Below are positions 3,639 through 15,848 of a stretch of 64,000 nt of DNA, piece after piece. This DNA is from Deltaproteobacteria bacterium. Its GTDB lineage: Bacteria; Desulfobacterota; Syntrophobacteria; Syntrophobacterales; Syntrophobacteraceae. Location of the stretch: positions 62,001-126,000 of the forward strand of contig JAAYVE010000009.1 of NCBI GenBank assembly GCA_012517315.1, written 5' to 3'. Positions within the stretch are counted from its first letter, which is position 1, and the number at the start of each line of letters is the position of its first letter. The notes under the pieces were generated by a model that was not told the origin of the DNA, did no database searches, and saw nothing but the letters and a program-made list of their open reading frames with translations. Both the position numbers and the translations under genes were made by a program.

Positions 3639-4357
3639 GCGGAAGGAGTCCCGTGTCGATTTCGGGAGTCTGAATTTGGGGACGTCTTTTCCGCATCCTG
3701 CCCTCAACCGCCGCGAAGAAGCCGTTTATGATAGATCGGAGCTCATTCGCGAGCCATTTCCACGCAAGGTGTCAGGCGCATCCATTTTGCTCCGTCGCCC
3801 TCGCCGAGCTGAAGATTCAACGCCGCCTCCGATACCGCTAGGCCCATCATGTGCCGAAAATCAACCCTGGGATGATGGAACAGGCCGGGTGCTTCTGGTA
3901 AAGTCATCAAACGACAATAACTGCAAAACTCGTTTGTCCCATCCCTGCTCCTGCTCAGACTGTTGCTTGGGTCTCATTTCCTTGTACGCTTTTCCCAATG
4001 GACTTCCCACTGTGGGTGGCGGTTCTTCAGCGGTGGATTCATACAGCGGTCGAATTTTGACTGATCTCCCGTTTTCACGAAGATTCTCAGTCTACTGCGA
4101 GGGTCCTTCAGGGCGATTCAAGAAGGCAATGCACCTTTTGTAGAGTTGCCGGGTGACGTGCCATCCTGATTGAATGCAGCCAGGGGCCAACACTCCCTGT
4201 AAAGGCATCGGACCGTGGATGGCGCGTGGCGGACCATTGATCTGAGGCGTGGAGGGGCATGATTTCTCTGGGGAGCAGAGCAGGACGACTGGCACTTCCA
4301 GGAATCGCCACGATTCAGCAATCAGCTGCTGTCGCTGCCGAGGAGCGGGGTGATGGA
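3639..4357. other. Intergenic region, no supported gene
   Basis: About 720 bases separate the peroxiredoxin from the sigma-54 activator. Open frames of up to 187 codons exist but begin inside the peroxiredoxin gene in another frame and have no family signature, hydrophobic pattern or good ribosome site. I saw no sigma-54 promoter, strong terminator or riboswitch here. The promoter of the downstream regulator should lie in the last 200 bases but could not be assigned. Confidence 0.5.
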
Positions 4358-5761
4358 ATGATGGCGAGGGTTCTCGTTCTCGGCGAGGAAACGTCTTGTT
4401 CCGAAGAGACAAGGGGGATTCTGGAGTCCCGGGGATTTCAGATCACTTTGTGCAAGGACAAATCTGAAGGTCTCCGGAAGCTGTTTGCCAGGAATTTCGA
4501 CTTGCTGGTGGTGGATCTGCAGCTGCCCGTTTCGTCTGAAATGGAGTTTTTCCGCCTCGCCAGGCTTGTGGATCCCAATATCAGCGTGATCATGGTGACG
4601 GCCGAAGGCACCATCGCTTCCACCGTGAGAGCCCTGAAGGGCGGGGTCAGCGACTACTTGCAACGCCCATACAATCCCTCGGACCTTGTGCAGTCCATCG
4701 AGAGAACTTTCAGAGAAAAACAGGTTCTCAGGGAAATCCGCCTGGTTCGCCCGGAATCCGTCCGAAAGCACACTTTCAGCAACATCATCAGCAAGAGTCC
4801 CAAGATGCAGTACATTTTCGAGATCATCAAGCGCGTTGCGGGCACGGACTCTACGGTGTTCATCACGGGTGAGACAGGCGTGGGCAAGGAACTGGTGGCT
4901 AAGGCCATTCACGACAACAGTCCCAGGCGGGACGGCCCGTTCTTGGCCATCAACTGCGGCAGCTTGACGGAAACCCTCCTCGAATCAGAACTCTTCGGCC
5001 ACGAAAAGGGGGCGTTCACGGGGGCTTTCAAGACCAAACACGGGAAGTTCGAGTGTGCCAACAACGGGACGCTTTTCCTCGATGAATTGGGGGACATCAC
5101 GTCGGCCATGCAGGTGAAGCTGTTGAGAGCCCTCCAGGAAAGGAAAGTGGTCCGAGTGGGCGGAAATGACTCCATTGCGGTGGATGTGCGGGTTATTTCC
5201 GCGACCAACCAGGACATCAAGGAAAAGATCCGAAGACACGAGTTCCGGCTGGATCTCTTCTATCGCCTCAATGTCATTCACATTCACGTCCCGCCGCTGC
5301 GGGAGAGACAGGAGGATATCCCGCTCCTTGTGCAACACTTCATAAAGGTCATCAATGAAAACCTGGGCCGCAAGATCAAAGGTGTCTCCACCCGGGGCAT
5401 GAAGCAGCTTCTGGAATACGAGTGGCCGGGAAACATCAGGGAATTGGAGAACGTGCTGGAGCGCGCCTGCATCACGTGTGACGGAGATGTTATCGACCAG
5501 TTCGTTTTTCCCCATGATGCACAGAATCCGGCAATGGAGGGAACCGACGAAACGGTGGACACGGATGTTCCTTTTGATCTGGCCCGACACATGGTTGTCG
5601 CGCAGTTTGAGAAGCGGTACCTGACGGAAGCCCTGAGGCGCTATGAAGGGAACGTTTCCGAGACGGCAAAGAGAACCGGCATCCATCAGAGGACTCTCTG
5701 GAGGAAGGTTCGGGAGCACCGTCTGGATCGCATGCAATTCAAGAAAAGCAAGGAACTGTAA
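4358..5761 (+). CDS. Sigma-54-dependent activator with atypical receiver domain
   Basis: This 467-residue NtrC-type activator has an N-terminal receiver-like domain (about 4-120), an AAA+ sigma-54 interaction domain (Walker A GETGVGKE, GAFTGA loop, ELGD-type Walker B, arginine-finger region) and a C-terminal Fis-type helix-turn-helix ending in TGIHQRTLWRK. The receiver keeps the acceptor-position Asp53 (VVDLQLP), but the usual acidic pair near the N-terminus reads LGEE and the conserved Lys before Pro is Arg (LQRPY). No kinase is adjacent. A palindrome and a sigma-54 promoter candidate follow directly downstream, so control of the methyltransferase operon is likely. The start is one of two adjacent ATGs. 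Confidence 0.9.
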   Translation: MMARVLVLGEETSCSEETRGILESRGFQITLCKDKSEGLRKLFARNFDLLVVDLQLPVSSEMEFFRLARLVDPNISVIMVTAEGTIASTVRALKGGVSDYLQRPYNPSDLVQSIERTFREKQVLREIRLVRPESVRKHTFSNIISKSPKMQYIFEIIKRVAGTDSTVFITGETGVGKELVAKAIHDNSPRRDGPFLAINCGSLTETLLESELFGHEKGAFTGAFKTKHGKFECANNGTLFLDELGDITSAMQVKLLRALQERKVVRVGGNDSIAVDVRVISATNQDIKEKIRRHEFRLDLFYRLNVIHIHVPPLRERQEDIPLLVQHFIKVINENLGRKIKGVSTRGMKQLLEYEWPGNIRELENVLERACITCDGDVIDQFVFPHDAQNPAMEGTDETVDTDVPFDLARHMVVAQFEKRYLTEALRRYEGNVSETAKRTGIHQRTLWRKVREHRLDRMQFKKSKEL

Positions 5762-5774
5762 CTCGGTGTCCTAA

Positions 5775-5792
5775 TGTGACATTGTTGTCACA
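5775..5792. promoter_or_regulatory. Palindromic activator-binding site candidate
   Basis: TGTGACA-N4-TGTCACA is a perfect inverted repeat placed about 85 bases upstream of a sigma-54-like promoter and just after a sigma-54 activator gene. That spacing suits an upstream activating sequence. The GTGAC/GTCAC half-sites recur upstream of mtaB with a different arrangement. Binding is inferred. Confidence 0.6.
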
Positions 5793-5857
5793 TCGCTCAA
5801 TCCATCGTGTACCTAGGTATTTTAGAGAGTTACGTTTCATTTCCCCAGAATCGCCTG

Positions 5858-5872
5858 TGGCAGAGAAATTGT
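5858..5872 (+). promoter_or_regulatory. Sigma-54 promoter candidate for the riboswitch-mtaAC transcript
   Basis: TGGCAG-N5-TTGT matches the -24/-12 consensus TGGCAC-N5-TTGC with one mismatch in each element and the exact spacing. It lies between the palindrome at 5775 and the cobalamin riboswitch, so a transcript from here would carry the riboswitch leader. Confidence 0.5.
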
Positions 5873-6129
5873 GACTTGAAGAAAGGAAAAAGTTTTATCT
5901 GAATAACGCCAAGTAGTTGAGGTCTAAGAAGAGGCTTGCGGAGAGTATTGGCACATAAAATGAAGGATACATTGAACAAAATGAAACCGAACAGCTGAGT
6001 GACGTGATGTGCTGATTTATCGTTCAATCGACAGCTGATCCTGATCCGGCAACAGCAAGGATCTACATCCTCCTCGATTCCGCTGAAAGGCATTGGAGCT
6101 TCCAGGGAATACGGCTTCTGAGCCACCTC

Positions 6130-6302
6130 ATCCGGTCGTGGGTTCTCATGGCCGGGAATCGTACCGTAGGGAAGATGGTGAAAAGCCATCACTGCCCCGC
6201 AACTGTGAGCGGCGGACCGTGTTCGACTCGAACTTGGGGTCATCCTCGGGGGAGAGCGGGGGTTCGAAATGCGACCGACCGCGAGTCAGACACCTACCTA
6301 TG
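6130..6302 (+). ncRNA. Cobalamin riboswitch
   Basis: The conserved core reads GGGAAG, then a GGTGAAAAGCC stem-loop segment, then GCCCCGCAACTGTGAGCGG (6193-6212 region). It is followed 70 bases later by a B12 box, GAGTCAGACACCTACC (6283-6298). Order and spacing match the AdoCbl-class aptamer. The outer limits are approximate. A terminator hairpin begins two bases after the aptamer. The regulated genes are a corrinoid methyltransferase operon rather than B12 synthesis or uptake. Confidence 0.88.
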
Positions 6303-6303
6303 A

Positions 6304-6345
6304 AGACGTCGTTGCTTCGAGGGCGAGAACGACGTCTGCTTTTCC
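6304..6345 (+). terminator. Hairpin terminator, likely riboswitch expression platform
   Basis: AGACGTCGTT (6304-6313) pairs perfectly with AACGACGTCT (6328-6337) around a 14-base loop and is followed by GCTTTTCC. The hairpin starts right after the B12 box, so B12 binding probably promotes termination. The T tract is short and imperfect. Confidence 0.65.
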
Positions 6346-6778: not shown

Positions 6779-7780
6779 ATGAATGCAAAACAGCGAGTGA
6801 TGAGCGTGATCAATCATGAGAAACCCGACCGGATGCCCTGTTTCGGTGCCAACTCGACGGTGACCTACGAGCAGATGGAAAAGGTGCAGGCGTTTTGGCC
6901 GGAGGGGCATGAGAAGGCGGAGGCGATGGCTAAACAGGCCATGGCCGCATACACCGTCTTGGGCTTTGACGCCGTGCGAGTTCCCTTCTGTCAGACTTTC
7001 GAAGCGGAGGCGCTGGGATGCAAGATCAAACCGGGGGGTACGGAGGGGATTCCGGGCATCGCCCACCCACCTCCCTACAAGCTGGATGACACACCCACAT
7101 TCCCTGATGATTTCCTGTCGCGTGGGAGGATTCCCGAACTGCTGAAAGCCGTGCGCATCTTGAAAAAGGAGTTGGGGGACGAGGTCGCCATTGTGGGCGG
7201 GATTATCGGTCCTTTTACCATTGCAGGGTCTTTGGTGGACACGGTTCCTCTTCTCAAGGCCACCTTCAAGGCTCCCGACAAGATCCGCCCCTTTCTGGAA
7301 GTCGGGATGAAAGCGGGAGCTGCTTTGGGAAAGGCGTTGGTGGACGCCGGGGCGGACATTATCTCCTGCGAGGACATGACAGCTTCTCCCGACCTTATTG
7401 CGCCCAAGACTTACAGGGAATTCGAAATGGAGTACCAGCGCCGTCAATTCGAGGGCATTTGCGTTCCGAGAATCCTCCACATTTGCGGCAACGTGGATGC
7501 CATTGTGGAATACATGGGGAAGACGGGGGCGGAGATACTCAGTCTTGAACCCAAAGCGAATGTTCAATTGGCGAGGGAGAAGTGTGGCCCACGGATCATC
7601 ATGATGGGGGGGGTGGATACGGCGACGACGCTGTTCATGAAAGACGCTGAAACGGTGAGGATGGGTTGCGAGGAGTCCATCGCAAAAGGAATTCAGATTC
7701 TCGCGCCGGGCTGTGCCGTGGCGCCTGGCACACCCCTGGAGAACCTTTTCGCCATGGTGGAAGTGGCCAAATCCCACTGA
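6779..7780 (+). CDS. mtaA: MtaA-like methylcorrinoid methyltransferase (UroD fold)
   Basis: This 333-residue cytoplasmic enzyme belongs to the UroD-fold MtaA/MtbA/CmuA group, which moves a methyl group from a methylated corrinoid protein to a thiol or pterin acceptor. The zinc motif is present as His234-X-Cys236 (HICGN) with Cys312 in the PGCAVAP loop. The gene lies directly before mtaC and in the same locus as mtaB. In methanogens the acceptor is coenzyme M; in bacteria such as Moorella the equivalent protein serves tetrahydrofolate, and that is the likely acceptor here (inference). The start is set by an AAGGAGGAGG box. The gene lies downstream of a cobalamin riboswitch. Confidence 0.87.
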   Translation: MNAKQRVMSVINHEKPDRMPCFGANSTVTYEQMEKVQAFWPEGHEKAEAMAKQAMAAYTVLGFDAVRVPFCQTFEAEALGCKIKPGGTEGIPGIAHPPPYKLDDTPTFPDDFLSRGRIPELLKAVRILKKELGDEVAIVGGIIGPFTIAGSLVDTVPLLKATFKAPDKIRPFLEVGMKAGAALGKALVDAGADIISCEDMTASPDLIAPKTYREFEMEYQRRQFEGICVPRILHICGNVDAIVEYMGKTGAEILSLEPKANVQLAREKCGPRIIMMGGVDTATTLFMKDAETVRMGCEESIAKGIQILAPGCAVAPGTPLENLFAMVEVAKSH

Positions 7781-7873: not shown

Positions 7874-8620
7874 ATGAAGACGTTGAATGATTACTCAAAG
7901 ATCTTCAGACGTTACGACCTGGAGACGGAAAAGGCGGGTGCCGCGAAGACGGTTTCCACAGATCCGGTGCTCCAGAAAATCGCCCAGTTTGTAGTGAACG
8001 GCGATGAAGAGGGAATTCTCCCCGCCGTGCAGGAGGCTCTCAAAACCAAGTCGCCTCTGGACGTGATCAACGGCGCCCTGATAGCGGGCATGAACGAAGT
8101 GAGCCGGCTCTGGGACGAGGGGGTCTACTTCCTGCCCCAGGTCATTCTCTCATCGGACGCCATGAACGTTGGAATTGCCGAGTGCGAGAAAGCCATGGGC
8201 AAGGCCATGAGCCGAAAAGCAAAAGTGGTCACTCATACGGCTGAAGGGGATATTCACGACATCGGTCAGGTCATCGTCAACGCTCTCCTCAATGCCAACG
8301 GTTTCGAAGTGATCAACCTGGGAGCCGACGTCCCCGTGGACAAGGTGGTGTCTGCCGTGAAGGAGCATCGTCCCGTGATGGTGACTGGTACCGCCCTCAT
8401 GACCACCACCATGACCGCTTTTCCGAAGATTGCCCACCAGTTGAAACTGGCTGGAATAGAAATCCCGTTCGTTTGCGGGGGAGGTGCGGTGAGCGAGGAA
8501 TACGTCACCAGTTTCGAATTGGGAATTTGGGGCAAGGAAGCCAGCCAGGCACCCGGTATGGCGGAAGATGCACTCTCAGGGGACAACTGGCAGACCATGC
8601 GCGGTAAATGGAACGGATAG
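7874..8620 (+). CDS. mtaC: Methanol corrinoid protein MtaC
   Basis: This 248-residue protein carries the B12 cofactor that accepts the methyl group from MtaB and gives it to MtaA. Residues 30-115 form the helical cap domain, and residues 117-235 the Rossmann-type B12 domain with the lower-ligand motif GDIHDIG (His128). Stretches GTALMTTTM and FVCGGGAVSEEYV, and the GKEASQAPGMA tail, match my recollection of methanogen MtaC better than the amine-specific MtmC/MtbC/MttC group, which supports methanol as substrate. The start follows GAGGAGG with ideal spacing. It is preceded by mtaA (93-base gap) and followed closely by a CobW-type GTPase. Confidence 0.92.
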   Translation: MKTLNDYSKIFRRYDLETEKAGAAKTVSTDPVLQKIAQFVVNGDEEGILPAVQEALKTKSPLDVINGALIAGMNEVSRLWDEGVYFLPQVILSSDAMNVGIAECEKAMGKAMSRKAKVVTHTAEGDIHDIGQVIVNALLNANGFEVINLGADVPVDKVVSAVKEHRPVMVTGTALMTTTMTAFPKIAHQLKLAGIEIPFVCGGGAVSEEYVTSFELGIWGKEASQAPGMAEDALSGDNWQTMRGKWNG

Positions 8621-8635
8621 CACAGGGTGGACGGG

Positions 8636-9643
8636 ATGATCGTTGACATCGTGTACGGGTTTCTGGGTTCCGGCAAAACCACGTTCATCACCAAGGTGCT
8701 GGCGGAATGGGGCGGACAGGAAAAGGTGGTGGTGTTGGTCAATGAGTTCGGCGAGGTGGGTATCGATGGCGAGTTGCTCAAAGGTCAGGGGGGAAACGTC
8801 GTCGAAATGCCGAGCGGCTGCATCTGTTGCACTCTCCAGGCGGATTTCAAAATGCAGATGCTCGACATCGTCAGTACGATCAAGCCTGAACGGTTGATCA
8901 TCGAGCCCACCGGCGTGGCGACCATCGCACAGATCCAGTCCATCGTGGCAGCCCAAATGTTCGAGAACGTGATCAAGGCCATCAACCAGGTGCTTATTGT
9001 TGATGCCACGGGTTTCATGGGTCTTTATAAGGCAAATCCCCATTTTGTCGAGTCTCAGGTGAGGAATGCCCGCATCGTCCTTCTCAACAAGTGTGACCGT
9101 GTGGAGAAGAGAAGGGCGATGCTCACCCGCGACGCTTTGTCGGCGATCAACCCCAACGCAACCGTGTTGATGACGGAATTCGGAGCTGTCGACTGGCAGC
9201 AGTACAAAATGGCACTTTCAAAGCCGTTGGTTGAAGACCAGACGGACTGGAGGAAGGTTCCGGCTGCGCCTCATGGACTGTTGGAAACTGTAGAACCTGC
9301 ACTGAAGGCTGGGGGAGAACTTCATCTCCATGAGGAGGAGGACGCCCTGGGCTATGAATCTTACGGGCTGGTGTTCGATGATGTGACGTTTGATTCCTCG
9401 AGACTCGAAGACCTCTTTCGGTTGCTCAACCAGTCCTCTATGGGAGAGGTGGTGAGAGCGAAGGGGATATTCAGACTGAAGGCGAAAACCGTTTTGATGG
9501 AACTGGCCTCAGGTGAGTTTTCCTCCCAGCCCGTGAGGGCAATGGATCAAAGCAAGGTCGCTGTCATCGGAAGGAAGCTGGACAGGAAGAGGATTGGATC
9601 GGCGTTTGAGCGATGCGTTTCGAGCGAAAGTGATGATTCCTAG
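8636..9643 (+). CDS. COG0523/CobW-family GTPase, putative metallochaperone
   Basis: This 335-residue G3E GTPase has Walker A GFLGSGKTT (residues 8-16), the CxCC metal motif (Cys62, Cys64, Cys65 in SGCICC), an NKCD guanine-binding motif and a C-terminal CobW_C-like region. Family members deliver metals, mostly zinc or cobalt, or act in nitrile hydratase and B12 processes. It sits 15 bases after mtaC. Because MtaA and MtaB are both zinc enzymes and MtaC carries cobalt, a maturation role for one of them is the natural guess, but this is inference. The ATG at 8636 has an AGGGTGG box upstream; a GTG at 8627 is the alternative. Confidence 0.85.
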   Translation: MIVDIVYGFLGSGKTTFITKVLAEWGGQEKVVVLVNEFGEVGIDGELLKGQGGNVVEMPSGCICCTLQADFKMQMLDIVSTIKPERLIIEPTGVATIAQIQSIVAAQMFENVIKAINQVLIVDATGFMGLYKANPHFVESQVRNARIVLLNKCDRVEKRRAMLTRDALSAINPNATVLMTEFGAVDWQQYKMALSKPLVEDQTDWRKVPAAPHGLLETVEPALKAGGELHLHEEEDALGYESYGLVFDDVTFDSSRLEDLFRLLNQSSMGEVVRAKGIFRLKAKTVLMELASGEFSSQPVRAMDQSKVAVIGRKLDRKRIGSAFERCVSSESDDS

Positions 9644-9867: not shown

Positions 9868-10398
9868 ATGGGTCCTCCGATTGTCATTGCAATCAGTATC
9901 ATGTGGCTGCCCGTGGCATTGCTCTTCCTAGGGAAGGGGGAAGCCAAGGGAACAGGTTTCGCTACAGCCGCAACAGGCCTTCTCACGCTCATCGGTGCTA
10001 TTCTTCAGGCTGCGGTTTTCAAGGACGGAGTAGTGGCTGGCCTGCTCTTTGTTCATGGCTTGTTTTACTGTTGTGTTGCCTTTGCTTTGCTTACAGGTCT
10101 TGAAGACCTCCGCTCCGTGGGCAATGTGGCTCTCACCACCGCCCTCGTCTCTGCCATCTATATGGTCCTGTTTTACACAGGAGGGCCGGTACTGGAGGGA
10201 GGCAAGCAGTTGATCGCCAAGAGCAACTATCTGGCTTTCGCTTGTGCCGGATATGCCGCCCTCACTTTCATGGTGTGGGGGAACGCCTTCGGCAGATTTC
10301 CCGCCAAGGCTTTGGCATGGTCTCTCATTGTGTGGGTGGTCGTCGGATTGTGGATTCCCGGATTCTGGCTCATGGCCTCAGGAACCTTGCCGTTTTGA
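9868..10398 (+). CDS. AmiS/UreI-family channel-like membrane protein
   Basis: This 176-residue protein has six predicted membrane segments (about 3-20, 28-48, 53-75, 85-105, 121-138 and 147-170). Length, topology and the C-terminal WIPGFWL stretch resemble the AmiS/UreI family, whose members conduct small neutral amides such as urea and acetamide. UreI ends in a comparable WIPAWLL. It begins with a strong AAAGGAGTG site, 224 bases after the GTPase and just before a sigma-54 activator. Lying between mtaC and mtaB, it may let methanol or another small neutral substrate enter the cell; this is inference. No amidase or urease gene is nearby. Confidence 0.68.
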   Translation: MGPPIVIAISIMWLPVALLFLGKGEAKGTGFATAATGLLTLIGAILQAAVFKDGVVAGLLFVHGLFYCCVAFALLTGLEDLRSVGNVALTTALVSAIYMVLFYTGGPVLEGGKQLIAKSNYLAFACAGYAALTFMVWGNAFGRFPAKALAWSLIVWVVVGLWIPGFWLMASGTLPF

Positions 10399-10446
10399 TC
10401 GGCGACGGCCCGGTTGGTTGGGTTTCTTTGTTTCAGGGAACAACTA

Positions 10447-11868
10447 ATGGAACAAGGATCTTCCGCTGAAAAGTGGGGAAAACAGAAGCCCGAGGTGTTG
10501 ATCGTGGACGATCCCTATAGGAGCTTTCAGTCCCTTCCCCGCTTGATTTCCCGCGAAGCCTTCTCAGTGAACTGGGTTCCCGATGAGCACCAGGGGTTGG
10601 AATTGCTCAGAAGGAATCCTGAGAAGGACTGGATCGTCATCGTGGATTTGAAATCATCGGGTATGGGCGGAGCCGGCTTCCTCCACCAGGCAAGACAGAT
10701 TGTTTCGGGAGCTGCGATCCTTGTTACCTCGCCCCTCGGTCCGTTTTTATATAAGGACGGGTCCTTTTTCGAGTTCTCCGGGCCGTCCTTGCGGCAGGAG
10801 ATCAACAAGATATTGTACGGGATCGCTCAAAGACCCGGGACCCCCTCTGCCCTGGCCACTAAATCCCAAGCTCGGCCGGAGTTGAGAGACGGATTTGGAA
10901 CCATGGTCGGCAGAAGCGAAAAGATCAACGAGATTTACCGGCTCATCTTGAATCTCAGGAACTCGTCTGCCACCGTCATGATCCAGGGGGAGAGCGGTAC
11001 GGGCAAGGAATTGATTGCGCGGATGATCCATCAGAACAGCCGGCGTCGAGAGAAACCTTTCGTGGCCGTCAATTGCGGGGCCATTCCTGCCGCCTTGGTG
11101 GAAAGCGAGCTTTTCGGGCACGAACGGGGTGCCTTTACAGGTGCAGTATGTCAGAAGAAAGGCAGATTTGAAGTGGCCCATGGGGGAACCCTGTTTCTGG
11201 ATGAAATCGGGGAATTGGGGAAAGACCTCCAGGTGAAACTCCTTCGTGTTCTTCAGGAGAGGGAATTCCAGAGGGTGGGGGGAAACCGCACCCTGAAGGC
11301 GGATGTCCGGATCATTGCGGCGACCAGTCAGGATCTCAAGAGTTGCATGCAGGCCGGGGATTTCCGGGAAGACCTGTACTATCGTTTGAACGTGGTGCCC
11401 ATTGAGGCTCCTCCCCTTCGGGACAGAAGAGAGGACATCCCGCTGCTCCTGGACCACTTTTTCAAAAAGATTTCCCGGTCCATGGGCTGCCCGGAGCCTT
11501 CCATTTCCCCGGAAGCGCGCCGGGCGATGATCAGATACAGCTACCCGGGAAATGTGCGGGAGTTGGCCAACATCGTGGAACGGCTCCTCGTGACGTGCCC
11601 GGACGGGAAGATTCGCCTGGGTGATCTGCCTCGGGAGATGCAGGAGGATGATCGGAGGGAGGGGCAGTCGCCTGAAATGCTCAGGGAACTGCCGGATGCA
11701 GGGGTGCCCCTGCGCGAGGTGGAACGGGAACTCATCCTGAAGACCCTGGAGAGGGCCTCGGGCAATAAGAGGGCTGCGGCGGAGATGCTGGGCATCACCC
11801 GGCGTCTGCTCTACCTGCGGCTCATGGAATACGGCCTCGTACAGGGGAAAAATCGTCACCGGGCGTGA
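10447..11868 (+). CDS. Sigma-54-dependent activator of the methanol genes (putative)
   Basis: This 473-residue NtrC-type activator has a divergent receiver-like domain (residues 15-135), an AAA+ domain (GESGTGKE Walker A, ERGAFTGA loop, LFLDEIGEL) and a Fis-type helix-turn-helix ([13 protein letters not shown]). The receiver keeps Asp21-Asp22 and a possible acceptor Asp67 (IVDLKSSGM) but lacks the usual Lys-Pro near its end, so it may not be controlled by phosphorylation. It lies directly upstream of two inverted repeats and a sigma-54 promoter in front of mtaB, and is the best candidate for their activator. An ATG at 10447 was preferred to the in-frame start at 10414 on domain grounds. Confidence 0.9.
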
Positions 11869-11885: not shown

Positions 11886-11902
11886 TGTCACGCTGGGTGA
11901 CA
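11886..11902. promoter_or_regulatory. Inverted repeat 2, candidate activator site for mtaB
   Basis: TGTCAC-N5-GTGACA is a perfect inverted repeat 90 bases upstream of the sigma-54 promoter. Its centre is 32 bases from that of repeat 1, about three helical turns, so both would face the same side of the DNA. Confidence 0.65.
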
Positions 11903-11991
11903 GACGCTTCCCAAACCCGGGGGAAGCAACCATTCGAATAAGAAAATAGTATTGAAATCAATTAATTGCAGCCAACGCCCCTGCACTCCCA

Positions 11992-12007
11992 TGGCATGTC
12001 CCTTGCT
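11992..12007 (+). promoter_or_regulatory. Sigma-54 promoter of mtaB
   Basis: TGGCAT-N5-TTGCT matches the -24/-12 consensus at 5 of 6 and 5 of 5 positions with exact spacing. The start codon of mtaB is 72 bases downstream, and an activator gene with two candidate sites lies just upstream. Confidence 0.8.
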
Positions 12008-12078: not shown

Positions 12079-13455
12079 ATGGCAAGACAGATCATTACCC
12101 AAATGGCTTACAAGAGCGGGGAAGAGATGATGTTCGGAACCGCGAAAAAGCCCGTGACCACCAAGCGAGGGATGGTTATCGGGGGCGGCTATGTGCATCC
12201 GGAGGTGGTTCCCCATCCGAGGCCGGGAAGCGAGAAGACCAAAAAGGCTCTTCTGCGCGAGTATGAGCGCGCCAACGGGGATGCCCTCGAAAGGATGGTG
12301 ATCGTCGGGCATCCGACTCTGCAGGTGGAGAACGAGCACATCTTTCAAATGACCCACAATCCCGAATGGGGCGGGGAGATCGCCGCGCAAACCGCCAAGC
12401 AGATGGACGACTACAAGGCAAAATACGGTCTGATCGCCGCATACCGGGCCACGGTCGCCGACCTGCGCAAGCCCGACATGCATGACATGCGGGAGAGCGA
12501 CTACACCAGAGAGGTGATCGCCTCCTTCGAGCAGTGCGCCAAGTATGCTGACATTGTCTCCATCGAGTCCATGGGCGGCAAGGAGATTTTCGACCATGCC
12601 ATCATCCGAAATGACATCGCGGGGATCCTTTTCGGTATCGGCGTGCTGGGTGCCATCGACATGGAGTGGATGTGGGATCAGATCGTGGCCATCGCCAAGA
12701 AGAACAATTGCATTCCCGGCGGCGACACCAACTGCTCCGAGGCGAACACCGCCATGTTCATGGCAGGGGGGTTGATCTCCAAGGACGTGCCTCATGTCTT
12801 TGCGGCCCTGGCCCGGGCGATTGCGGCGTCCCGTACGCTGGTGGCTTATGAATGCGGTGCCACTGGGCCCACCAAGGATTGCGCTTACGAGGATCCCATC
12901 ATCAAAGCGATGGCGGGAGTGCCCATCTCCACCGAAGGGAAGACCAGCGCATGTGCCCACTCGGACCTGTGCGGCAATCTCATCATGGCGGTCTGCGACA
13001 TGTGGAGCAACGAGGCGGTGGAATACCACGACATGTTCGGGGCCACCACCACATCTGTTTTTGCTGAAATTCTGGGGTATGACTGCGCCATGCTCAACAC
13101 GGCGATCGAGCTCGGCTACCAGCAGCAAATGAAGGAAATCCTCGTCAACTCCGACATGTATCGCGACTCCCACAGCCTCATTCTGGCTCCCAACAATGCG
13201 TGGGAGATCGGAAACGCCATCGTGAGCAACCGCAGCAAGGGCAACTACGCCAGCGCGAGGGCAGGGGCCATGAAGGCGGGTGAGATCATCATGAACGATC
13301 CCAAGATGAAACTCACCGGAATCGAGAAGGAAGCCCTGACCAAGGCCATGAAGGACCTGGAGGCTCTGCCGGACAAGGAAGGGGACTTCATCGACATGTG
13401 CTTGAAGAAGTACAAGAACGTCAAGGGTTTCAGCCCGAAATCCTACGGGCTGTAG
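12079..13455 (+). CDS. mtaB: Methanol:corrinoid methyltransferase MtaB
   Basis: This 458-residue TIM-barrel enzyme activates methanol on zinc and transfers its methyl group to the Co(I) corrinoid of MtaC. Residues equivalent to the known zinc ligands of Methanosarcina MtaB are all present: Glu163 (SIESMGGKE), Cys219 (GGDTNC) and Cys268 (GPTKDC). Collinear similarity to archaeal MtaB runs from end to end (for example MERMVQVG versus LERMVIVG, NEAVEYH-type segment, C-terminal FSPKSYGL). Start chosen at GCGAGGAGG-ATG. It has its own sigma-54 promoter and a strong terminator, so it is a single-gene unit separate from mtaAC, which would allow different expression levels. Methanol as substrate is well supported; other methoxyl donors cannot be fully excluded. 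Confidence 0.95.
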   Translation: MARQIITQMAYKSGEEMMFGTAKKPVTTKRGMVIGGGYVHPEVVPHPRPGSEKTKKALLREYERANGDALERMVIVGHPTLQVENEHIFQMTHNPEWGGEIAAQTAKQMDDYKAKYGLIAAYRATVADLRKPDMHDMRESDYTREVIASFEQCAKYADIVSIESMGGKEIFDHAIIRNDIAGILFGIGVLGAIDMEWMWDQIVAIAKKNNCIPGGDTNCSEANTAMFMAGGLISKDVPHVFAALARAIAASRTLVAYECGATGPTKDCAYEDPIIKAMAGVPISTEGKTSACAHSDLCGNLIMAVCDMWSNEAVEYHDMFGATTTSVFAEILGYDCAMLNTAIELGYQQQMKEILVNSDMYRDSHSLILAPNNAWEIGNAIVSNRSKGNYASARAGAMKAGEIIMNDPKMKLTGIEKEALTKAMKDLEALPDKEGDFIDMCLKKYKNVKGFSPKSYGL

Positions 13456-14135: not shown

Positions 14136-15848
14136 ATGACGCGGTTGGGCATCGCCCTTGATTTGGGCACGAGCGGTTTCCGGGGTCAGGCGATTTCTTT
14201 GGGTGAAGACAGCCGCATTCTCTCGACGGCGGTGACGACGCGTCATCCGTTTCCAGGGGCCAATGTCATCGATCATCTCCACTTCGCTTTGGAAGTGGGG
14301 GTTCCTCGAGCCCACGAGGTGATCATCCGCGCGGTCAACGTGGTATTGGAGCACTTGAGGGTGGACTTCTCCAGGGTCGAACGGCTGGCTGTTTGCGGCA
14401 ACCCCATCCAACTCTCCCTCTTCCAAGGCATCGAGATCCGCGATCTAGCCTACGCGGGCAAACGCAAGTTGGAAGCACTGGGGGTGATCCCCCCAAAGCG
14501 CAACGCTCAGCGCCTTCAAGCGGCTGAAATCATGGGACTGAACCTCCCCAGCCAGGCCAAGGTTCTCATCCCACCCGCTGTGCGCCACGAGATAGGGGCA
14601 GATGCCCTGGCCATGATGATCCAGACGGACATGCTGCAGAAGGACGAAATCGCCATTGTCACCGACTACGGAACCAACGCGGAGATGGCCCTCATTGCAG
14701 GGGGAATCGTCTATACCGGTTCCACCGCTGCGGGCCCGGCCCTTGAAGGCCAGCAGATTGAAGACGGGATATTGGCTCTCCCCGGGGCGATTTCAGATGT
14801 CTTGTTTGAACCCGAACCGGCCGGTTTCATGGCGTCCAGGTGCTTCGGCGCGGGCAATGAGGCCGCCATGAGAGGAACGCTCAGAACGTTTGTCCTCGAT
14901 AAAGAAATGATAGCCCGTTCGGGCGATGCGGTGGATCCCTCCTCCGGGCGGGTGATTGAGAATGGGGAACTGGAAGCGGTGGGGATCACCGGTACGGGAG
15001 TGGTGGCCCTTCTCAGCCAGGGATTGAAATCCCGTCTCATCCAGATTCCCCGGATCAATACCCAGGATGGGGAAATCCATCTACCCAACGATCTCAAGTT
15101 CACCGAGGAAGACCTCAAAGAGGCGGGCAAGGCCATCGGAGCCATCCGAGCGGGCCACATCACCCTGTGCCACGAATCCGGTATTCGGCTGGAACAGATC
15201 GAAACGGCTTACATGTCAGGGGCTTCGGGCACGTACGTGGACGCACTCAAGGCCCAGGAAATCGGCATGATTCCGGCCCGGGTCAAGCGCATATACCAGG
15301 TCGGCAACACATCGCTGGCCATGGCCGCGGACATGGTGAGAGACGAGGCGAATCTATGGAAGATGCAGCAGATTGCGGATAGTCTTCGGCAAAATCACGT
15401 CATGTTCGCTGAATCCAAGACCTTCGAAAAAGTGTACATATTGGAGCTTTCGTATTGGACGGAGGGAATGCCCTGGAGTCAGTACCAGAAGTTTCTGTCC
15501 AAATATGGTCTTCCCCTTCTCGCGGAGGTTGTGGATTCCCCCCAGGTCATCAAGACGGTTCAGAGGGATATCCCCGACCTGGGCGAAATGGGCCTGGAGA
15601 TCATCCAGGACATCGGGGAACGCAAGACTATGGTTTTCGAAGGGTGCACCGGCGATGCGGAGTGCGTCCTGGAATGTCCTGAGAAGGCTCTGAAGATGAA
15701 AAGGCGCGGTGAGCGGTATGCCATCACCATCAACCTCGCCCTCTGTAACGGAGTGGCCTGCAGGCGTTGTGAACGGGTGTGCAAGGAGAAGGCGTTTGAT
15801 CTCATCGCGCTGCTCTGCTCCAAGGATGACCCGGCATCAGGTGAATGA
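14136..15848 (+). CDS. RamA-like corrinoid reductive activase
   Basis: This 570-residue protein belongs to the ASKHA/DUF4445 group that reduces inactive Co(II) corrinoid proteins to Co(I) with ATP. The N-terminus carries the phosphate-binding ALDLGTSGFRG pattern, the middle holds the long DUF4445 domain (TDYGTNAEM, AGPALEGQQI, GSGVxxLL-like elements), and the C-terminus holds two ferredoxin-type cluster motifs (Cys504, 510, 514 followed by Pro; Cys537, 542, 545, 549). The C-terminal clusters are the RamA arrangement of methanogens, unlike the N-terminal [2Fe-2S] of RACo. The first cluster shows only three close cysteines plus distal ones. Start follows GGAGGAGCGAGAGG. It probably serves MtaC. 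Confidence 0.88.
   Translation: MTRLGIALDLGTSGFRGQAISLGEDSRILSTAVTTRHPFPGANVIDHLHFALEVGVPRAHEVIIRAVNVVLEHLRVDFSRVERLAVCGNPIQLSLFQGIEIRDLAYAGKRKLEALGVIPPKRNAQRLQAAEIMGLNLPSQAKVLIPPAVRHEIGADALAMMIQTDMLQKDEIAIVTDYGTNAEMALIAGGIVYTGSTAAGPALEGQQIEDGILALPGAISDVLFEPEPAGFMASRCFGAGNEAAMRGTLRTFVLDKEMIARSGDAVDPSSGRVIENGELEAVGITGTGVVALLSQGLKSRLIQIPRINTQDGEIHLPNDLKFTEEDLKEAGKAIGAIRAGHITLCHESGIRLEQIETAYMSGASGTYVDALKAQEIGMIPARVKRIYQVGNTSLAMAADMVRDEANLWKMQQIADSLRQNHVMFAESKTFEKVYILELSYWTEGMPWSQYQKFLSKYGLPLLAEVVDSPQVIKTVQRDIPDLGEMGLEIIQDIGERKTMVFEGCTGDAECVLECPEKALKMKRRGERYAITINLALCNGVACRRCERVCKEKAFDLIALLCSKDDPASGE

Follow-up and report, generated by a model that had tools for sequence, protein, structure and literature searches.

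The leader of the mtaA-mtaC genes in this genome is rather probably a two-input gate, with a sigma-54 activator and a corrinoid aptamer placed in series. Its layout is shown at the level of sequence, running from an activator gene through what is likely its dedicated enhancer site and a promoter of the sigma-54 type to a corrinoid aptamer, and loop L5 of the predicted aptamer can kiss the loop of a hairpin, P13, which stands right after P1. The preliminary description of this DNA had proposed a sigma-54 promoter and a riboswitch in series on mtaAC, and conservation of the arrangement in seven genomes supports that proposal. A single Rfam RNA, the cobalamin aptamer upstream of mtaA-mtaC, was found on the + strand of the window (the whole stretch of 64,000 nucleotides analysed).

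Genes of the mta locus

The gene for EBP1, an NtrC-like response regulator and sigma-54 enhancer-binding protein (PF00072, PF00158, PF02954), was located at 4259-5761 on the + strand, Met34 at 4358 being the more likely start. The same gene lies directly upstream in the other loci wherever the contig extends that far, and its product is likely to be the activator of the mtaA promoter.

The genes following the leader, also on the + strand, encode an mtaA-like methylcobamide methyltransferase (6779-7780; PF01208, NF004889, TIGR01463), an mtaC-like corrinoid protein (7874-8620; B12-binding domains PF02607 and PF02310), a G3E/COG0523 GTPase (8627-9643; PF02492, PF07683) beginning 7 bases after mtaC, an uncharacterised hydrophobic protein of 176 amino acids (9868-10398), a second sigma-54 activator named EBP2 (10414-11868; PF00158, PF02954) and mtaB, a methanol:corrinoid methyltransferase (12079-13455; PF12176, E 1.9e-205). 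The listed start of the mtaB reading frame, 12022, is too close to its promoter. A RamA-type activase (TIGR04270) was identified at 14136. The names mtaA and mtaC given in the preliminary description agree with the matches to PF01208 and TIGR01463 and to the B12-binding domains and MtaC models, respectively; the best NCBIfam matches of MtaC, NF040655 and NF040669, were both below their cut-offs. MtaA, MtaB, MtaC and an activase, which together define an MtaABC system, are all encoded here (PF01208, PF12176, PF02607/PF02310, TIGR04270), the three Mta proteins scoring below the NCBIfam MtaA/MtaB/MtaC equivalog cut-offs.

For the 176-residue protein neither Pfam nor NCBIfam gave a match. The protein is 49-73% identical in other mta loci and is kept alongside methanol methyltransferase genes in bacteria of several phyla; it may be a membrane component for methanol or corrinoid.

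A receiver domain was looked for in EBP2 and none was found. Among the Desulfobacterota-type loci compared, EBP2 was seen between mtaC and mtaB only where the aptamer is present, and it accompanies the uncoupling of mtaB from mtaAC. The mtaB promoter region (11886-12007, + strand) contains TGTCACGCTGGGTGACA at 11886-11902 and a strong -24/-12 element, TGGCATGTCCCTTGCT, at 11992-12007, whose score of 17.5 was reached by no shuffle; a clear -24/-12 element precedes mtaB in five relatives as well. The site at the mtaB promoter of this genome, TGTCAC/GTGACA, is different from the palindrome at mtaA. EBP2 is likely the activator of mtaB, and judging from position EBP1 likely acts on mtaA-mtaC and EBP2 on mtaB, a layout which suggests a two-step activator cascade.

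Conservation of the locus

Relatives were found by searching with MtaC, first in 39 genomes of the order, then in the wider phylum, and then in the class of genome G356. Within the 39 genomes one other with MtaC was identified (G023, of a different genus; 86% identity), with the aptamer upstream of mtaA. The wider phylum yielded G356 (MtaC 77%), also aptamer-bearing, and its class added G487, G496, G505 and G501, each with an aptamer before mtaA. The order common to these seven genomes of two classes is activator gene, palindrome, -24/-12 element, aptamer, mtaA-mtaC-GTPase-membrane protein-EBP2 and mtaB-ramA; several of the comparison genomes are fragmented, the contig of G501 ends before the activator, and the leaders of G501 and G505 are almost identical.

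Five genomes of another class (G410, G544, G542, G548 and G553) carry the promoter and genes for the activator, mtaA, mtaC, mtaB, the membrane protein and the GTPase. No aptamer was found in this group, in four of the five even at a permissive threshold; the second activator was not seen there, and mtaB directly follows mtaC. In G410 the gap between the promoter and mtaA holds a minus-strand gene (locus L104, ~11340-10685) for a protein of 213 amino acids that combines an Fe-S motif with a CdhD-like domain (PF04060, PF03599) and resembles a miniature corrinoid iron-sulfur protein. It occupies the place that the riboswitch has in the other clade, and a similar space exists in loci L118-L121.

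A single branch of the MtaA tree (98/98) has all seven aptamer-bearing loci on the same side, where one Chloroflexota sequence on a long branch, with no aptamer next to it, possibly belongs too. Since the seven loci share this side, the aptamer appears to have been gained once, or lost in a few steps, and kept. At more distant mtaC loci in other phyla no adjacent riboswitch was found in the genomes compared, some of which are limited by contig ends. Pyrrolysine insertion elements (RF02509) adjoin mtaC-like corrinoid genes in loci L012 and L013 (G038 and G026, of sister families in the same order), which suggests methylamine systems.

Probable enhancer site and promoter of mtaA

The palindrome TGTGAC-N6-GTCACA named in the preliminary description is present as an exact 18-bp match, TGTGACATTGTTGTCACA, at 5775-5792, just after the stop codon of EBP1. 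Based on dinucleotide shuffles, 0.01 occurrences are expected per window; the palindrome occurs once in the 4.43-Mb genome, and the reversed-pattern control gave 0. Together with a third half-site, TGTC at 5767-5770, it forms the likely EBP1 enhancer site (5767-5792, assigned to neither strand). The pattern TGTC...GAC...TGTC is invariant in seven aligned loci, this one and six others in which it sits right after the activator gene. Two of the seven are aptamer-less, so the palindrome is very probably, on the strength of this alignment, the enhancer site of EBP1 and part of the promoter rather than of the riboswitch.

The -24/-12 element of the preliminary description is present in this genome in a weak form. 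The best candidate here, TGGCACATAAAATGAA at 5949-5964 (+ strand), scored 9.3 (P about 0.05, shuffles matching this score 5-6% of the time); it has the GG, and its -12 part has GA for GC. Its distance from the palindrome, ~170-180 bp, fits that of the strong elements of the relatives. An alternative, TGGCAGAGAAATTGTG at 5858-5873 (+ strand), was ranked behind it by score (second best, 7.6-7.7) and by spacing to the palindrome, which is unlike that in the relatives. Five of the six aptamer-bearing relatives have a strong -24/-12 element upstream of the aptamer (P <= 0.002), those of three orthologous leaders being TGGCACGGAAAGTGCT, TGGCATTCAAATTGCA and TGGCATCGAAATTGCA; none was found in the leader of G487. 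A clear element was also present in all five aptamer-less relatives.

The corrinoid aptamer

The claim of a cobalamin aptamer before mtaAC was confirmed by a covariance-model search with Rfam, which matched RF00174 at 6123-6315 on the + strand with 61.3 bits (E 9.6e-13; gathering cut-off 31.5 bits). The six orthologous mta leaders scored 48-73 bits. Nine RF00174 aptamers were found in the 4.43-Mb genome, the mta one scoring weakest. The other eight (L001-L008) are ordinary-looking, and the seven with a detected B12 box all have a strong terminator; two of them precede apparent cbiC-like and cobT-like genes.

The aptamer core, 6166-6214, is the sole leader DNA that can be aligned between genomes (85-96% identity). 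Loop L5, CCCCG at 6195-6199 (+ strand), is identical in all seven loci. The B12 box, AGTCAGACACCTACC at 6284-6298 (+ strand), diverges from that of ordinary cobalamin riboswitches: most mta-type leaders have CAGGATACC where ordinary ones have CAGAAGACC or CAGAAAACC. The change itself is CAGGAUACC in the mta type and CAGACACC in this genome against CAGAAGACC, that is, U or C in place of an ordinary purine. Since the mta model also picked out a small number of other aptamers, or sequences resembling them, that have it, the changed box is only a hint of a possibly altered ligand preference. The accessory P6 region, another point of difference from ordinary members, is degraded in this genome and absent from G023. 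When the mta-type 3' module was searched for elsewhere, matches above 50 bits occurred at mta loci only; the weaker matches that were inspected were mostly ordinary cobalamin riboswitches, several of them before cobO-like genes.

By the usual features of RF00174 with an L5-L13 kissing loop (aptamer fold and score, L5 CCCCG, B12 box, and P13 directly after P1), the mta leader RNA is, in sequence and predicted structure, a genuine corrinoid riboswitch in an unusual location. Unlike the usual members, it precedes cofactor-using methyltransferase genes, lacks a downstream intrinsic terminator, and has an extended, stable P13.

The P13/L13 hairpin

The preliminary description had taken the hairpin at 6304-6337 (+ strand) for a terminator. 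It consists of 10 bp followed by GCTTTTCC, has a predicted energy of -14.5 kcal/mol, and lies directly after P1. It is here assigned, from sequence comparison, to P13/L13, the kissing-loop partner of aptamer L5, because its stem covaries, its loop (L13, CGAGGG at 6318-6323) is invariant in the mta leaders and complementary to L5, and a CGAGGG loop follows P1 in ordinary riboswitches too. In six non-identical leaders the stems differ in sequence yet pair (86.9% of cells), with a covariation score of 0.479 against 0.322 in shuffled alignments (0/500 shuffles); the score was halved when the partner was slid by one column. The ordinary riboswitches with this loop stand before cobO-like genes of the phylum, and there a separate terminator follows.

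In this class the kissing loop forms between L5, whose consensus is UCCCG, and the L13 loop of P13; env8HyCbl and Alkalihalobacillus halodurans cobT have bulged versions of it (PMC10653944). L13, read as CG(A)GGG, is an imperfect complement of L5 CCCCG with one bulged A, from which we infer a loop-loop pairing in the mta leader. The GGUGAAAAGCC loop was rejected as the kissing partner, as it corresponds to L4 (PMC10653944).

As a conserved terminator the hairpin was rejected, the U run being missing in all six other orthologous loci. A strong intrinsic terminator was found 3' of the B12 box in 37 of 38 ordinary cobalamin riboswitches, a panel made up mostly of relatives within the order and biased to high-scoring members. 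Terminators of that strength were sought in the six other mta leaders and none was found; in the present leader P13 itself with GCUUUUCC is all that would qualify, marginally, at -14.5 kcal/mol. The usual platform, a terminator or ribosome-site hairpin under the control of P13, was thus not seen, and no ribosome site lies near P13. The distance from P13 to the start of mtaA is roughly 60-440 bases across loci (441 in this genome), and P13 therefore does not hold the mtaA ribosome site.

Pairings that would compete for either strand of P13 were sought in the aptamer and downstream leader against shuffles. Nothing above chance was shared by the genomes; a single borderline competitor in this genome, the P6 region against the 3' strand of P13 (5%), is not conserved. 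The alternative pairing freeing a terminator, which the preliminary description had proposed as a check, accordingly did not appear in any consistent form. When access to the mtaA ribosome site was compared by folding with P13 allowed or blocked, the direction of the effect was opposite in different genomes. Rho, RNA decay, translation of a small leader ORF or a tertiary effect are possible outputs. An ORF of 67 codons with a strong ribosome site and a stop overlapping the mtaA start lies between P13 and mtaA in loci L111, L112 and L113, being present in G496, G505 and G501 only. It was rejected as a conserved leader peptide, since differences by codon position (10/3/8) gave no clear coding signal and there was no Pfam match.

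The leader might also be a relic, a cobalamin riboswitch brought by rearrangement from a biosynthesis operon and now regulating nothing. The aptamer score, weakest in the genome, the decay or loss of P6 and the loss of the terminator would fit such an origin. The conservation of the aptamer core amid a leader that is otherwise not alignable, the compensatory change in P13 around an invariant loop, and the retention of the element in all seven loci of the branch all argue for continued function, and we regard the relic as improbable.

Sign of regulation

The puzzle raised by the preliminary description, that users of B12 stand behind a B12 riboswitch, is real. Because no competitor of P13 was found and the predicted effect on the ribosome site differs between genomes, ON or OFF is not readable from the sequence. 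On physiological grounds, we place at about even the chance that corrinoid binding permits expression of mtaA-mtaC. This ON reading is favoured over OFF because the genes are cofactor users and the likely activator of mtaB lies behind the same leader; what is left falls to absence of regulation or to action in trans. There is precedent in eut, another catabolic system that needs B12, on which AdoCbl acts as a positive gate, in the EutV type by way of EutX (PMC5821096), and in the one corrinoid riboswitch known to activate naturally (PMC10653944).

The strongest competitor, which we consider distinctly less probable yet by no means negligible, is an ordinary OFF cobalamin riboswitch. In it the cofactor would stabilise P13 and lower mtaAC by way of Rho or RNA decay; a weak P13 terminator would be a further route in this genome alone. 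All known corrinoid riboswitches but one, a naturally activating one, are reported to repress (PMC10653944); the riboswitch of Veillonella mutA, by name a B12-enzyme gene, was among the representatives studied with repressing reporters (PMC9600662); and the final aptamer hairpin of EutX is itself a terminator (PMC5821096). P13 followed by GCUUUUCC scores as a terminator here. Against these stand the U run absent from six of the seven loci, the want of the separate terminator that 37 of 38 ordinary relatives have, the 441 bases between P13 and the mtaA start, and the little physiological sense of a cofactor repressing its own consumer.

EutX/Rli55 is the closest known logic for B12-using genes: its AdoCbl aptamer belongs to a catabolic system that requires B12 and has a response regulator of its own (PMC5821096). 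The lack of a visible cis output could point the same way, to an aptamer RNA released as a small RNA in its own right which would sequester a regulator. EutX/Rli55 acts in trans by sequestering EutV, whereas the mta aptamer is part of an mRNA leader whose activator is of the sigma-54 enhancer-binding kind. Neither EBP1 nor EBP2, both of them DNA-binding sigma-54 activators, has an ANTAR domain, an RNA-binding repeat was not recognised, and the aptamer is always adjacent to mtaA and co-oriented with it. Action in trans is very improbable, the least favoured of the readings considered.

Proposed gate and its relation to known systems

In the proposed gate, EBP1 would start transcription when methanol metabolism is wanted, and corrinoid binding would set the L5-L13 contact and with it the level of mtaA-mtaC, by an output other than a conventional downstream intrinsic terminator. 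The same leader would also set the output of the GTPase, the membrane protein and EBP2, and EBP2 would pass the corrinoid signal on to mtaB. The fullest version, in which a terminator-less activating riboswitch and a sigma-54 promoter license the methyltransferase only with corrinoid at hand, through an undescribed P13/L13 mechanism and possibly with an altered ligand preference, is put forward tentatively and with well under even confidence.

The A. halodurans cobT activating riboswitch resembles the mta leader in that its kissing loop with P13 is imperfect and has a bulge (PMC10653944). There P13 and a terminator exclude each other, whereas neither a terminator nor a competitor of this kind was found in the mta leader. 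The Sporomusa mtaABC operon likewise has mtaA, mtaB and mtaC with a linked regulator, and a cobalamin riboswitch at mta is not mentioned in the parts of that report consulted (PMC12456013); in the present locus mtaB has a promoter and a likely activator to itself. A literature search, with subscription papers mostly outside its range, found no account of methanol methyltransferase genes preceded by a corrinoid riboswitch.

Almost every corrinoid riboswitch known so far shuts down genes of B12 supply, whereas the mta one precedes B12 users. If true, a terminator-less riboswitch in this position would represent feed-forward control of a carbon pathway by this class, and the mta leader would offer a second test case for corrinoid binding raising expression. 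The sigma-54 switch joined to a B12-sensing RNA persists in seven genomes, and this conservation suggests that cofactor supply gates the use of methanol; the prediction is that methanol use by anaerobic bacteria would depend, through gene expression, on the supply of corrinoid.
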